Positions 214 to 51,663 of a stretch of 64,000 bases of DNA are shown in pieces. A program made the translations under genes and the position numbers. The stretch spans positions 1,178,001-1,242,000 of the forward strand of contig NZ_CP043908.1 in NCBI RefSeq assembly GCF_008630935.1. Reading direction: 5' to 3'. Origin of the DNA: Thermodesulfobacterium sp. TA1 (lineage in GTDB: Bacteria > Desulfobacterota > Thermodesulfobacteria > Thermodesulfobacteriales > Thermodesulfobacteriaceae). Positions within the stretch are counted from its first letter, which is position 1. Every line of letters begins with the position of its first letter. The notes beneath the pieces are model-generated. The model saw nothing but the letters and a program-made list of their open reading frames with translations. It had not been told where the DNA came from and ran no database searches.

Positions 214-1728
214 TTACTCCTTGTTTAATATTTGAATATAAGATATTTTAGCAGAAAGATGGGTTAAAATTTCTTTTACCTCAGGCCTTTCTTTTATCTC
301 TTCAAGCTTAGGTTGAGGAGAAACCTCTACCTCAACCTCTACAGGCTTCTTAAAAAACTCTTTCATCTTCTCTATAAGTTCATCAAAATATGTAGTATTT
401 TTTAAATGTTCCTTAACTTTTATATGTAAACGCTGTAAATTAAAGACAGGTGAGGGTAAACTATTAGCGAGACTGTAAAGAATTGGACGGTCTTTTGCAA
501 GTAGTTCTAAAAAATCTTGCCAAGTTTTTTCAGAAAAAGTTAAAGGTTCTTTTTTTTCTTCAGTTTCTTTAAGTGAAGGTTCAAGGTTTTTATAGTCAAA
601 AGAAAGGTTAGGTAAAGTCTCTATTTTCTCTATCAATTTGTTTAGAGGAACTAATTTAGCTTGTTCGCAAACCCTTACCAAGGCTAATTCAAACTGCAGC
701 TGAGGATAACTACTTCTTCTTAATATCTCAAGGTCTCTGGTTAAGCTCTGTAAGATCAGAAAAATTTCCTCTAATTCGTATTCTAAGACTAAATCTCTAA
801 GAACTGGATTTTGAAAATGCTGGGTATTTTCTTGAGGTAGAGCTTTTGTCAAGAAAAGCTCTCTGAAAAATTCGGTTAGTTTTTCCATAAGATAGATAAG
901 GTCGGTTCCTTGTTCGTAAACCTTTTGAACAACCTCTAAGGTTTTTTTTAGGTTTTTCTCCAACAAAACTTGAGCTAATTCCTCTATTAACAAGGCTTCA
1001 TGCCATCCAAAGGCTTGAATGACATCCTCTTTGGTATGAGTTCCATAAGCCATAGCCTGGTCTAAAAGTGAAAGGGCGTCTCTTAAACTCCCTTGAGCTT
1101 CTTTAGCGATAAGTTTTAAGGCCTCCTCTTCTATCTGATAACTCTCCTTTTCACAAACGGTTTTTAGATGCTTTATTAATTGAGGAAGGTCAAGCTTTCT
1201 AAAATCATAACGCTGGCACCTAGAAAGGATGGTAGGTAAAAGCCTGTTAGGCTCGGTAGTAGCTAAAATAAAATATACATGAGAAGGTGGCTCTTCTAAG
1301 GATTTAAGAAGGGCGTTTGAAGCCTCTTTAGTAAGCATATGGGCTTCGTCTATGATATAAACCTTGGCTTTACCTCGAGTAGGAGCATATTTAAGGTTTT
1401 CGATGATCTCTCTTATTTGGTCTATTCCTCGGTTTGAAGCAGCATCTATTTCTATAACGTCTACAAAAACCCCACGATTAATCTCTAAGCAGTTAGGACA
1501 TTGATTACAGGGTTCATATCCTTCTATCGGATTTAGGCAGTTTAAAGCCTTAGCTACAAGCCTTGCTACCGTGGTTTTACCTGTTCCTTTTATACCTGAA
1601 AACAAAAGGGCATGAGAAAGCTTACCTAATTTAAGGGCATTGGCTATGGTTTTGACTACATGGGTCTGTCCTACTACTTCTTTAAACGACTGAGGTCTAT
1701 ATCTTCTGGCTAAAACTATATAAGACAT
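214..1728 (-). CDS. dnaX: DNA polymerase III subunit gamma/tau
   Basis: Clamp-loader ATPase of the replicative polymerase. The 504-residue protein has the DnaX start (SYIVLARRYRPQSFKEVVGQ), a Walker A GIKGTGKT at residues 45-52, a four-cysteine zinc module (Cys64, 74, 77, 80), a DEAH Walker B at 127-130 and an SRC motif near 169. At 504 residues it resembles a full-length tau-like product with a short C-terminal region. It lies between a small zinc-ribbon gene upstream and ybaB downstream. An A8 run near codon 261 is in frame and far from the usual gamma/tau boundary, so I do not infer a frameshifted second product. Confidence 0.97.
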   Translation of the reverse strand: MSYIVLARRYRPQSFKEVVGQTHVVKTIANALKLGKLSHALLFSGIKGTGKTTVARLVAKALNCLNPIEGYEPCNQCPNCLEINRGVFVDVIEIDAASNRGIDQIREIIENLKYAPTRGKAKVYIIDEAHMLTKEASNALLKSLEEPPSHVYFILATTEPNRLLPTILSRCQRYDFRKLDLPQLIKHLKTVCEKESYQIEEEALKLIAKEAQGSLRDALSLLDQAMAYGTHTKEDVIQAFGWHEALLIEELAQVLLEKNLKKTLEVVQKVYEQGTDLIYLMEKLTEFFRELFLTKALPQENTQHFQNPVLRDLVLEYELEEIFLILQSLTRDLEILRRSSYPQLQFELALVRVCEQAKLVPLNKLIEKIETLPNLSFDYKNLEPSLKETEEKKEPLTFSEKTWQDFLELLAKDRPILYSLANSLPSPVFNLQRLHIKVKEHLKNTTYFDELIEKMKEFFKKPVEVEVEVSPQPKLEEIKERPEVKEILTHLSAKISYIQILNKE

Positions 1729-1744
1729 GTTTATTATTTTAAAG

Positions 1745-1954
1745 CTATTTTGAAAGTTTACAACCGAGGCCTGAAATCCAAGCTTCTTTTAATTTTTCGA
1801 TTTCCTCTTCATATTCCTTAGCCGGTCTTTCTATTCCGCAGGTAAGGCACCTTACCTTCCCTTTTGCTCAGGTTCCTTCTAAAACCGCTTTTCCTCCACA
1901 GTATTTACAAACCAGAAAATCTTCTTTGTGAAAAGTTTGGTCAGGATTTTGCAT
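1745..1954 (-). CDS. Small zinc-ribbon protein with in-frame UGA (candidate selenoprotein or nonsense-disrupted gene)
   Basis: A 70-codon frame starts at ATG 1954-1952, with an AAGGA ribosome site 6 bases upstream, and ends at TAG 1747-1745. Codon 29 is TGA (1870-1868). The frame continues sensibly on both sides: CKYCGG at residues 16-21 before it and CLTCG at 36-40 after it form the two knuckles of a zinc ribbon, followed by a charged helix (KEYEEEIEKLKEAW). A hairpin with SECIS-like geometry follows the UGA (separate entry), and selA in this window shows that selenocysteine is made. Against this, the UGA is not in a CxxU or UxxC redox motif, so a C-to-T nonsense change of an Arg CGA codon remains possible. 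It sits between lhgO (17 bases upstream) and dnaX (16 bases downstream). I do not recognise a named family. Confidence 0.55.
1840..1870 (-). promoter_or_regulatory. Candidate bacterial SECIS hairpin after in-frame UGA
   Basis: Ten bases after the TGA (1870-1868, minus strand) a perfect 7-bp stem AGGTAAG/CTTACCT (1857-1851 with 1846-1840) encloses the loop GTGC (1850-1847). The loop begins 17 bases after the TGA and its first base is G. Known bacterial SECIS elements lie inside the coding sequence just after the UGA, with an apical loop about 16-37 bases away and a G in the first two loop positions, so spacing and loop both fit. The bulged U of the E. coli fdhF element is not evident. A short perfect hairpin could also arise by chance. 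Confidence 0.45.
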
Positions 1955-1971
1955 GTTTTTTCCTTAAAATT

Positions 1972-3165
1972 TTATAAAAACCGAGTTACTACATATTCAG
2001 CAAAAGGAAGACAAGCGGTAAACGCTGGAGACACTGCATTCAAGATGTGAAGACTATGTTGGTCTCCTTCTACTACAAAGTCTTGCACCAACTCCAAAGT
2101 ATCCTTGTGTAAAAGTTGGGCTCTTATACCTGGTTTCCCCCAACGGTTAAACCCTCTCTGATCCATATAATAGACTAATTTCTGGGCTTCACTTATCAAA
2201 TAAGACTTCCAATATTTTTTTAACTCATCCAAAGCAAGACTTCTAAACTTAGAATTTTTAAAAAAAAGCAAAAAGAGATACTTCCCAATCTCTGTCATCT
2301 CATTAAGTTTAAAGTTAGAAAAAAGGCCGTAATTTTCCCTTGATAAACAAGGAGTAGCAGTAGGACCGATTTTAATGGTCCCATCAATTTTTATCGTAAA
2401 ATGTACCCCTAAGAAAGGATTTTTAAGATTTGGTACAGGATAAATATTTCTTGAAATAAACTGAGAGGTGCCAGTATATTCTAAATAAAGACCTTTAAAA
2501 GGTAAAATCACATAGTCTTTACCAAAACCAAAATCTTTAGCTATTTTATCGGCGTAAAGGCCTGAGGCGTTGATGATTTTTTCTGCTGAAAAAAGGATTT
2601 TTCCTGCAAAAATTTCGTTTTCACCAAGTCTTTTTTGGTAAGGGGTGTTAAAGAAAAACTTAACACCCATCGTTTCCAAGTCTTTTTTTAAAGCGTTAAG
2701 AACCTCTATAGGGTCTACGGTTGAAGTAGTCGGGCTCCAGAGGGCTTTCTGAAAGGTTTTAGCATTAGGTTCAAGGTCTTTAAGCTCCTTTTCGTCTATC
2801 AAATAAACCTCTACCCCGTTAGCCTCTCCTCTTCTTTTTAGTTCATAAAGGGTAGGAAGGTCTTCTTCAGACTTAGCAACCACTACCTTACCGCATTTTC
2901 TTATACCAAGGCCTTTGACTTCGCAGTAGCGGGTTAGTTCTTCGTTTCCCTTTTTAGTAAACTTAGCCTTCAAGGAATCTGGATAATAGTAGAAACCTGC
3001 ATGAAGGACCCCACTGTTTCTTCCGCTGCTATGAAACCCGAGTTCTTTTTCTTTTTCTATGATATAGACTTCTTTTTCAGGAAAACGCTCCTTTAGTTTT
3101 AAACCTAAGGCAAGCCCTATGATACCTGCCCCGATAATAAGGAAATCAGCCTTTACCTTTTTCAT
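1972..3165 (-). CDS. lhgO: L-2-hydroxyglutarate oxidase/dehydrogenase (LhgO family, FAD-dependent)
   Basis: A 397-residue FAD oxidoreductase of the DAO superfamily. Its N-terminus carries the dinucleotide-binding motif GAGIIG (residues 12-17) and the second strand ends in IIEKE; the stretch HSSGRNSGVLHAGFYY is characteristic of LhgO/YgaF, as are the overall length and the SPAFTACLPFAEYV C-terminus. The family oxidises L-2-hydroxyglutarate to 2-oxoglutarate and passes electrons to the membrane quinone pool in characterised members; that role here is inferred. It is the first gene of the lhgO / zinc-ribbon / dnaX / ybaB run and has its own consensus-like promoter upstream. Confidence 0.88.
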   Translation of the reverse strand: MKKVKADFLIIGAGIIGLALGLKLKERFPEKEVYIIEKEKELGFHSSGRNSGVLHAGFYYYPDSLKAKFTKKGNEELTRYCEVKGLGIRKCGKVVVAKSEEDLPTLYELKRRGEANGVEVYLIDEKELKDLEPNAKTFQKALWSPTTSTVDPIEVLNALKKDLETMGVKFFFNTPYQKRLGENEIFAGKILFSAEKIINASGLYADKIAKDFGFGKDYVILPFKGLYLEYTGTSQFISRNIYPVPNLKNPFLGVHFTIKIDGTIKIGPTATPCLSRENYGLFSNFKLNEMTEIGKYLFLLFFKNSKFRSLALDELKKYWKSYLISEAQKLVYYMDQRGFNRWGKPGIRAQLLHKDTLELVQDFVVEGDQHSLHILNAVSPAFTACLPFAEYVVTRFL

Positions 3166-50303: not shown

Positions 50304-51663
50304 CTTTTAACCTCTTAAAGGCCTTTAAGATTTCTGGATAATCTTGTTTAAAAAGACATCTTGGGTCTATTACCAAAAAATCTTCTTCTATCCTAGTAAT
50401 AATAGGAGGCTGGTTTTTTCTTAAAAATTCTTGCAACCTTTGAGGAGAAACTTTTTCTGAATAAACCCCTACTACAAAAGAAGGTAAGTCTAACAAAGGC
50501 AAAGAACCACCTCCGGTCTTTCCTGAACTTTCCAGCACTTTAAACTGAAACCCTTCTAGCCCAAGCTTCTTTAAACGATTAGCTAGTTTAATAGCCTCTT
50601 TTTTAAGTTGTTCTTTAGGGGTTAGGATCATTTTTAAAGTAGGAATGTACTCTCTGGCTAAGTTTTCGTCTCGATAAAGTCTTAAGGTGACTTCTAAGCC
50701 TGCTAAAGTAAGTTTATCTATCCTCAAAGCACGGTTTAAAGGATTTTTTCGGATTTTTTCTATAAGATCCTTTTTACCAAGGATAATACCTGCTTGAGGA
50801 CCACCTAAAAGTTTGTCCCCAGAAAAGGTAACGATGTCTACCCCTGCAGCTAATATTTCTTTAACCGTTGGTTCTTTTGGATACCCATATTTGGACAAAT
50901 CTATCAAACAACCGCTTCCCAAATCCTCCATTACCGGTAAGTTGTATTTTCTTCCTAAGACTACCAACTCTTCTGAACTTACTTCTTTAGTAAAACCAAC
51001 GATAGCAAAGTTGCTCTTATGCACTTTAAGTAGTAATCCTGTATTTTCGTTTATAGCTTTTTCGTAGTCATAAAGATGGGTTTTGTTGGTAGTTCCTACC
51101 TCACGAAGGATACAGCCAGCCCATTTCATTACCTCAGGAATCCTAAATGAACCGCCTATTTCTACTAATTCGCCCCTGGAAACGATGACTTCTTTCCCAA
51201 AAGCTAATGTATTAAGAGATATCAAGACGGCTGAGGCGTTGTTGTTAACTACTATCGCCCCTTCTGCTCCGGTAATCTCTTTAAGGATTTCCTCTACATG
51301 AACATATCTACTTCCCCTTTTTCCTTCTTCTAAGTTAAACTCTAAGTTACTATAAAACTTAGCTACTTTTACTATCTCTTCTATAGCTTTTTCTGCTAAA
51401 GGTGCTCTTCCTAAATTGGTGTGGATTACTACTCCTGTAGCATTAATTACTCTTTGTAAAGAGGGTTTTTCATAATCTTCAAAAACCTGTTTGATATAAT
51501 TTAAAAGACATTCCTCGGTAAGCTCTTTTAACTCACCTTTTTGCCATTTTTCCCTTATAAAATTGGTTACCCTACGTGCAGGTTCAGTAAAATAACTTAA
51601 GGGATATCCTGGATAAAGCCGAGAAAGACGTTCTTTAACTTCATTAACCGAAGGGATCCTCAT
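50293..51663 (-). CDS. selA: L-seryl-tRNA(Sec) selenium transferase (SelA)
   Basis: PLP enzyme that converts Ser-tRNA(Sec) to Sec-tRNA(Sec) using selenophosphate. The 456 residues contain the SelA-specific NATGVVIHTNLGRAPLAEKA, NNNASAVLISLNTLA, RGELVEIGGSFRIPEVM, VGTTNKTHLYDYE and the PLP lysine Lys284 in TFSGDKLLGGPQAGIILG. Presence of the N-terminal domain (about 1-65) marks bacterial SelA rather than a SelA-like aminotransferase. selB, selC and selD are not in the window. It starts two bases after the aminotransferase gene and shows that the organism decodes UGA as selenocysteine at some sites. Confidence 0.96.
   Translation of the reverse strand: MRIPSVNEVKERLSRLYPGYPLSYFTEPARRVTNFIREKWQKGELKELTEECLLNYIKQVFEDYEKPSLQRVINATGVVIHTNLGRAPLAEKAIEEIVKVAKFYSNLEFNLEEGKRGSRYVHVEEILKEITGAEGAIVVNNNASAVLISLNTLAFGKEVIVSRGELVEIGGSFRIPEVMKWAGCILREVGTTNKTHLYDYEKAINENTGLLLKVHKSNFAIVGFTKEVSSEELVVLGRKYNLPVMEDLGSGCLIDLSKYGYPKEPTVKEILAAGVDIVTFSGDKLLGGPQAGIILGKKDLIEKIRKNPLNRALRIDKLTLAGLEVTLRLYRDENLAREYIPTLKMILTPKEQLKKEAIKLANRLKKLGLEGFQFKVLESSGKTGGGSLPLLDLPSFVVGVYSEKVSPQRLQEFLRKNQPPIITRIEEDFLVIDPRCLFKQDYPEILKAFKRLKDGV

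Follow-up and report, generated by a model that had tools for sequence, protein, structure and literature searches.

The in-frame UGA at codon 29 of a small dual-CxxC gene of Thermodesulfobacterium sp. TA1 very probably encodes selenocysteine (Sec), as judged from sequence comparison. The earlier note on this DNA had put this reading forward as a possibility, and it is now strongly supported because the codon is either UGA or a Cys codon in homologues, purifying selection is equal on both sides of it, a SECIS-like hairpin follows it, and the genome encodes the Sec machinery.

Location and Structure of the Gene

The window (the whole stretch of 64,000 nucleotides that was analysed) belongs to a complete genome of 1.83 Mb. 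The gene occupies positions 1745..1954 and consists of 69 codons followed by UAG. The earlier note had placed a 70-codon frame between lhgO and dnaX at the correct coordinates but had not stated the strand; the gene lies on the minus strand, as do all window features described below. Translation of the minus-strand frame 1954..1745 gives MQNPDQTFHKEDFLVCKYCGGKAVLEGT-U-AKGKVRCLTCGIERPAKEYEEEIEKLKEAWISGLGCKLSK*, a protein of 69 residues in which U is codon 29 (UGA at 1868..1870). The ribosome-binding site, the CxxC pairs on either side of the TGA and the clean in-frame stop noticed previously are all present. A Shine-Dalgarno sequence AAGGA (1961..1965), read directly, is located 6 nt upstream of the ATG; the first CxxC (C16-C19, 1898..1909) precedes the UGA, and the second (C36-C39, 1838..1849), whose codons form part of the hairpin, follows it. 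The upstream neighbour, separated by a 17-base gap, is lhgO, coding for L-2-hydroxyglutarate oxidase (1972..3165; NCBIfam NF008726, 324.3 bits). The downstream neighbour, dnaX (214..1728; NCBIfam NF004046, 460.9 bits), is separated by a 16-base gap.

Among named relatives, the gene is also found in T. thermophilum, T. hveragerdense and T. hydrogeniphilum. In five other genomes of the genus (G003, G004, G006, G010 and G012), some of them incomplete assemblies, selB is present and no gene of the window gene's family (family A below) was detected. Judging from these undetected copies, some of which concern incomplete assemblies, the family A gene is dispensable or has been lost in part of the genus.

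Codon 29 in Homologues and Selection on the Frame

Among 60 relatives searched, homologous frames with one TGA inside turned up in members of the genus, the family and the order, and also in a single genome from outside it. The UGA occupies the same column in 29 of 29 aligned members, and C16, C19, C36 and C39 (window numbering) are invariant. Conservation of the UGA in orthologues throughout the order excludes both a sequencing error and chance.

A wider set was obtained by searching 395 genomes of the phylum with the NCBIfam model NF041197 and then scanning the retrieved loci with profiles. The earlier note had proposed the residue aligned with codon 29 in homologues as a check, and the outcome supports Sec: of 138 distinct homologous loci in the phylum, 112 have UGA and 26 have Cys at the aligned codon, and none has another sense codon where the motif could be read. 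Family A contributes 60 distinct loci with TGA and 2 with TGC (the raw count was 67 UGA and 2 Cys, with 7 of the 67 being re-fetched duplicates), and a paralogous family, B, contributes 52 with TGA and 24 with TGC or TGT. Ten more members with different spacing, judged by eye, also carry UGA or Cys. Two genomes combine a Cys-form family A gene with a UGA-form family B gene (loci L132/L080 and L145/L085), which means that Sec and Cys replace one another while the machinery is kept.

Selection on the frame was analyzed in eight members of the genus. The pN/pS ratio is 0.17 before the UGA and 0.15 after it; purifying selection is thus equal on both sides, and the second half of the frame must be translated in frame. 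Over the first ten codons past the UGA, synonymous divergence amounts to 0.33, compared with 0.67 upstream and 0.86 further downstream, indicating that those ten codons are under extra constraint.

These data bear on the doubt, raised in the earlier note, that a zinc-ribbon gene in decay has acquired its TGA by nonsense mutation, for example of Arg CGA. The UGA does lie outside the usual CxxU/UxxC motifs, and some genus members have no detected copy, two points in favour of this doubt. However, dozens of genomes in the phylum share a UGA at this codon, with Cys in the remainder and Arg never, and selection after the UGA is as strong as before it. The derivation from Arg is refuted by the homologues, and decay by nonsense mutation retains only a negligible probability.

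The SECIS-like Hairpin

The sequence downstream of the UGA can form a 7-bp hairpin, AGGUAAG-GUGC-CUUACCU (1840..1857), which begins 10 nt after the UGA and has its apical loop 17 nt after it, with G as the first and U as the second loop nucleotide. The published model of bacterial SECIS elements describes a loop of 3-9 nt, a stem of 4-16 bp, a G within the first two loop positions, a distance of 16-37 nt from the UGA and a minimum free energy of -7.5 or lower (PMC13188914). The window hairpin fits this model in its loop (4 nt, GU), stem (7 bp) and distance (17 nt), and its energy is borderline: the 18-nt stem alone has -7.3 kcal/mol, slightly short of the -7.5 of the model. A 51-nt segment from the window reaches -11.2 by way of a different best fold, with competing folds and an unremarkable z of -0.55, and the GC-rich clade form of the hairpin has -9.6. 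No Rfam family reached its gathering score in the window, and relaxed thresholds at the gene yielded only matches at chance level. The support for the hairpin lies in comparison among members and not in the folding energy of the window segment.

Across 25 members of the order, the stretch following the UGA conforms to the consensus GGU(A/G)AG-GUG(C/U)-CU(U/C)ACC. The Arg codon is AGG in 25/25, though AGG usage is about 19%; the other hairpin codons are restricted too, with Leu encoded only by CTT or CTC, Val only by GTA or GTG, and Thr or Ala only by ACC or GCC. The pairing third positions of the Val and Leu codons are A-U in 10 members, G-C in 15 and mixed in none, so that the compensatory change is synonymous. 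This covariation follows genomic GC content and is partly confounded by it; GC content confounds some of the A-U/G-C change, but the exclusive use of pairing codons is unaffected by it. All hairpin cells are paired, a level reached in 0 of 500 shuffles, and pairing is 27-54% when the partner is slid. SECIS-like loops are present in 100% of UGA genes of family A and 94% of those of family B, compared with 60% and 66%, respectively, in synonymous recodings. In Cys-form genes of family B, the value is 46% against 37% in recodings, a less clear difference.

Another explanation is that the UGA is a true stop and that regulated readthrough or restart yields the second half. Any UGA may terminate translation part of the time, and Sec insertion competes with termination. 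On the other hand, Cys in place of the UGA at 26 loci gives one continuous protein, the hairpin has the features of a SECIS, and the genome encodes the Sec machinery. We consider a true stop very unlikely.

Selenocysteine Machinery and the Proposed Decoding

The selA gene, coding for selenocysteine synthase, is located in the window at 50314..51660 (TIGR00474, 612.2 bits), as the earlier note had reported. Searches of the same genome also identified tRNA-Sec (80 bits) and selB (399 bits), so that SelA, SelB and tRNA-Sec, which a Sec-decoding genome has to contain, are all encoded. Throughout the genomes compared, selB was found in 87 of 87 near-complete genomes with the UGA form versus 213 of 241 others (p = 2e-4, a value that ignores kinship). 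Outside the window, the same genome contains a frame for FdhA, the alpha subunit of formate dehydrogenase, with one in-frame UGA in the motif ARIUHSAT (G000:C1:1565949-1568684, locus L172).

One could suppose that the UGA specifies some other amino acid, for instance Cys through an opal suppressor, all the more so as the residue that replaces it in homologues is Cys. Against this stand the dedicated tRNA-Sec, SelA and SelB and the Sec-type FdhA of the genome; moreover, a suppressor would leave the SECIS-like hairpin unexplained. Judged from a tRNA search that covered tRNA-Sec, such decoding appears very improbable.

With codon 29 read as Sec, SelA would make Sec-tRNA(Sec), and SelB would bring it to the ribosome while binding the hairpin that begins 10 nt downstream of the UGA. 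As the hairpin is inside the codons for R/K-V-R-C-L-T-C, this motif would double as a protein and an RNA signal.

Relationship to Known Selenoprotein Families

The earlier note had suggested a new selenoprotein. This holds for the gene but not for the family: NF041197 (CxxC_Se_CxxC, "dual CXXC motif small (seleno)protein"), which takes in hypothetical protein DW as well as OS_HP3, has already been recorded as a family of predicted selenoproteins. The model matches all 29 of the first members. The window member scores 36.7 bits (E 3.5e-9) over positions 1-50 of 53, which is below the curated cut-off of 40 bits; the protein is a relative under the NF041197 threshold and not a formal match. The spacing CxxC-x9-U-x6-CxxC is found in both families A and B and agrees with NF041197. 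What is new is this member, its occurrence throughout the order, a clear SECIS and the split into two co-occurring subfamilies.

According to a 2026 review, NF041197 covers two listed selenoproteins, OS_HP3 with an RxU motif and hypothetical protein DW with a GxU motif (PMC13188914); DW is a deep-Sep prediction from Desulfosarcina (PMC12013277). Like DW, family A falls under this model and has a GxU motif, which is GTU in the window and GxU in 56 of 60 members. Unlike DW, which comes from Desulfosarcina, the family A form occurs throughout the order to which the window genome belongs. Family A resembles OS_HP3 in having Sec or Cys between two CxxC pairs (PMC13188914, PMC9312934) and differs from the RxU-type family B, where RxU is found in 39 of 52 members and a CDR-type C-terminal ending in 33 of 52. 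Family B co-occurs with family A in many genomes; the window genome lacks it, having yielded a single match to NF041197. Profile-profile comparison of the two families with hhalign gave a probability of 97.3 (E 2e-11); on this sequence evidence, they are homologous and paralogues. Judged by motif and model rather than against the published sequences themselves, family A is very probably equivalent to DW and family B to OS_HP3.

FmdB-family zinc ribbons (TIGR02605) are likewise small CxxC...CxxC ribbons with a listed Sec form (PMC13188914), but in that form UxxU replaces a CxxC, and TIGR02605 matches just 5 of the 29 members, weakly. A Pfam identity was rejected, as only weak zinc-ribbon matches were obtained, the best being Lar with 22.3 bits, under its cut-off.

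Two variants were observed among the loci. At L146 and L155, the family A frame runs about 110 residues beyond the zinc ribbon, a possible fused domain. The Cys-form family B genes at L068-L074, L076, L078, L079 and L084 follow a pyrE-like phosphoribosyltransferase gene at a distance of about 50 bases, and their products end in IIYD, not CDR.

Genomic Neighbours

Family A genes are flanked by lhgO and dnaX in the genus, by topA in other members of the order, and by dsr-like genes and a TPR protein gene in other orders; the neighbours of family B are pyrE, asd or fabD. Since the neighbours are mostly housekeeping genes and change between clades, no pathway is claimed from them. At several loci outside the order (L131, L137, L139, L141, L142, L144, L156 and L158), the family A gene is convergent to dsrP-, dsrO-, dsrJ- and dsrK-like genes, these names coming from sequences and not from a family search. 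On the other side of the family A gene, the same loci contain a divergent TPR gene and a HEAT-repeat-like gene.

Predicted Fold and Possible Role

The AlphaFold model is of moderate quality (mean pLDDT 72). Searches with solved structures and folds offered only weak zinc-ribbon likeness, to ribosomal eS27 and RNA polymerase zinc ribbons (best Z 3.8), and no identity was taken from them. We infer that the two CxxC pairs probably bind a single zinc and that Sec probably sits between predicted strands 22-26 and 33-36, which join the pairs. The reading we favour, though tentative and somewhat short of probable, is that Sec is an exposed reactive selenol taking part in thiol/selenol redox or in electrophile or metal chemistry. 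Its partner may be the Cys that often follows the second CxxC (50 of 60 UGA members of family A and 38 of 52 of family B).

None of these additional Cys residues is strictly invariant. Sec might then be not a redox selenol but a metal ligand (an extra or swapped ligand of Zn, Fe or Cu) or a selenium carrier, a role that its position between two invariant CxxC pairs would also suit. Four Cys are, however, enough for one zinc, so Sec is not needed as a ligand, and we regard this role as rather unlikely.

Discussion

What looked like a nonsense frame is a well-supported selenoprotein gene, assigned to the GxU subfamily of dual-CxxC small (seleno)proteins. Its case illustrates how a phylum-wide selenoprotein can escape current annotation, when its score falls under a curated cut-off and its UGA is taken as a stop. 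The gene also provides a compact SECIS with synonymous covariation that is open to testing.

It is conceivable, though unlikely on present evidence, that the GxU proteins are a selenoprotein family apart from OS_HP3 with a conserved role of their own, a zinc ribbon with Sec on a hairpin that is kept near core machinery genes (dnaX, topA and dsrMKJOP-like genes) in the phylum. If this were true, the GxU family would represent a novel type of redox partner or sensor acting through a selenol. That a small selenoprotein retains its UGA in so many genomes of a single phylum indicates that selenium has a real role there.
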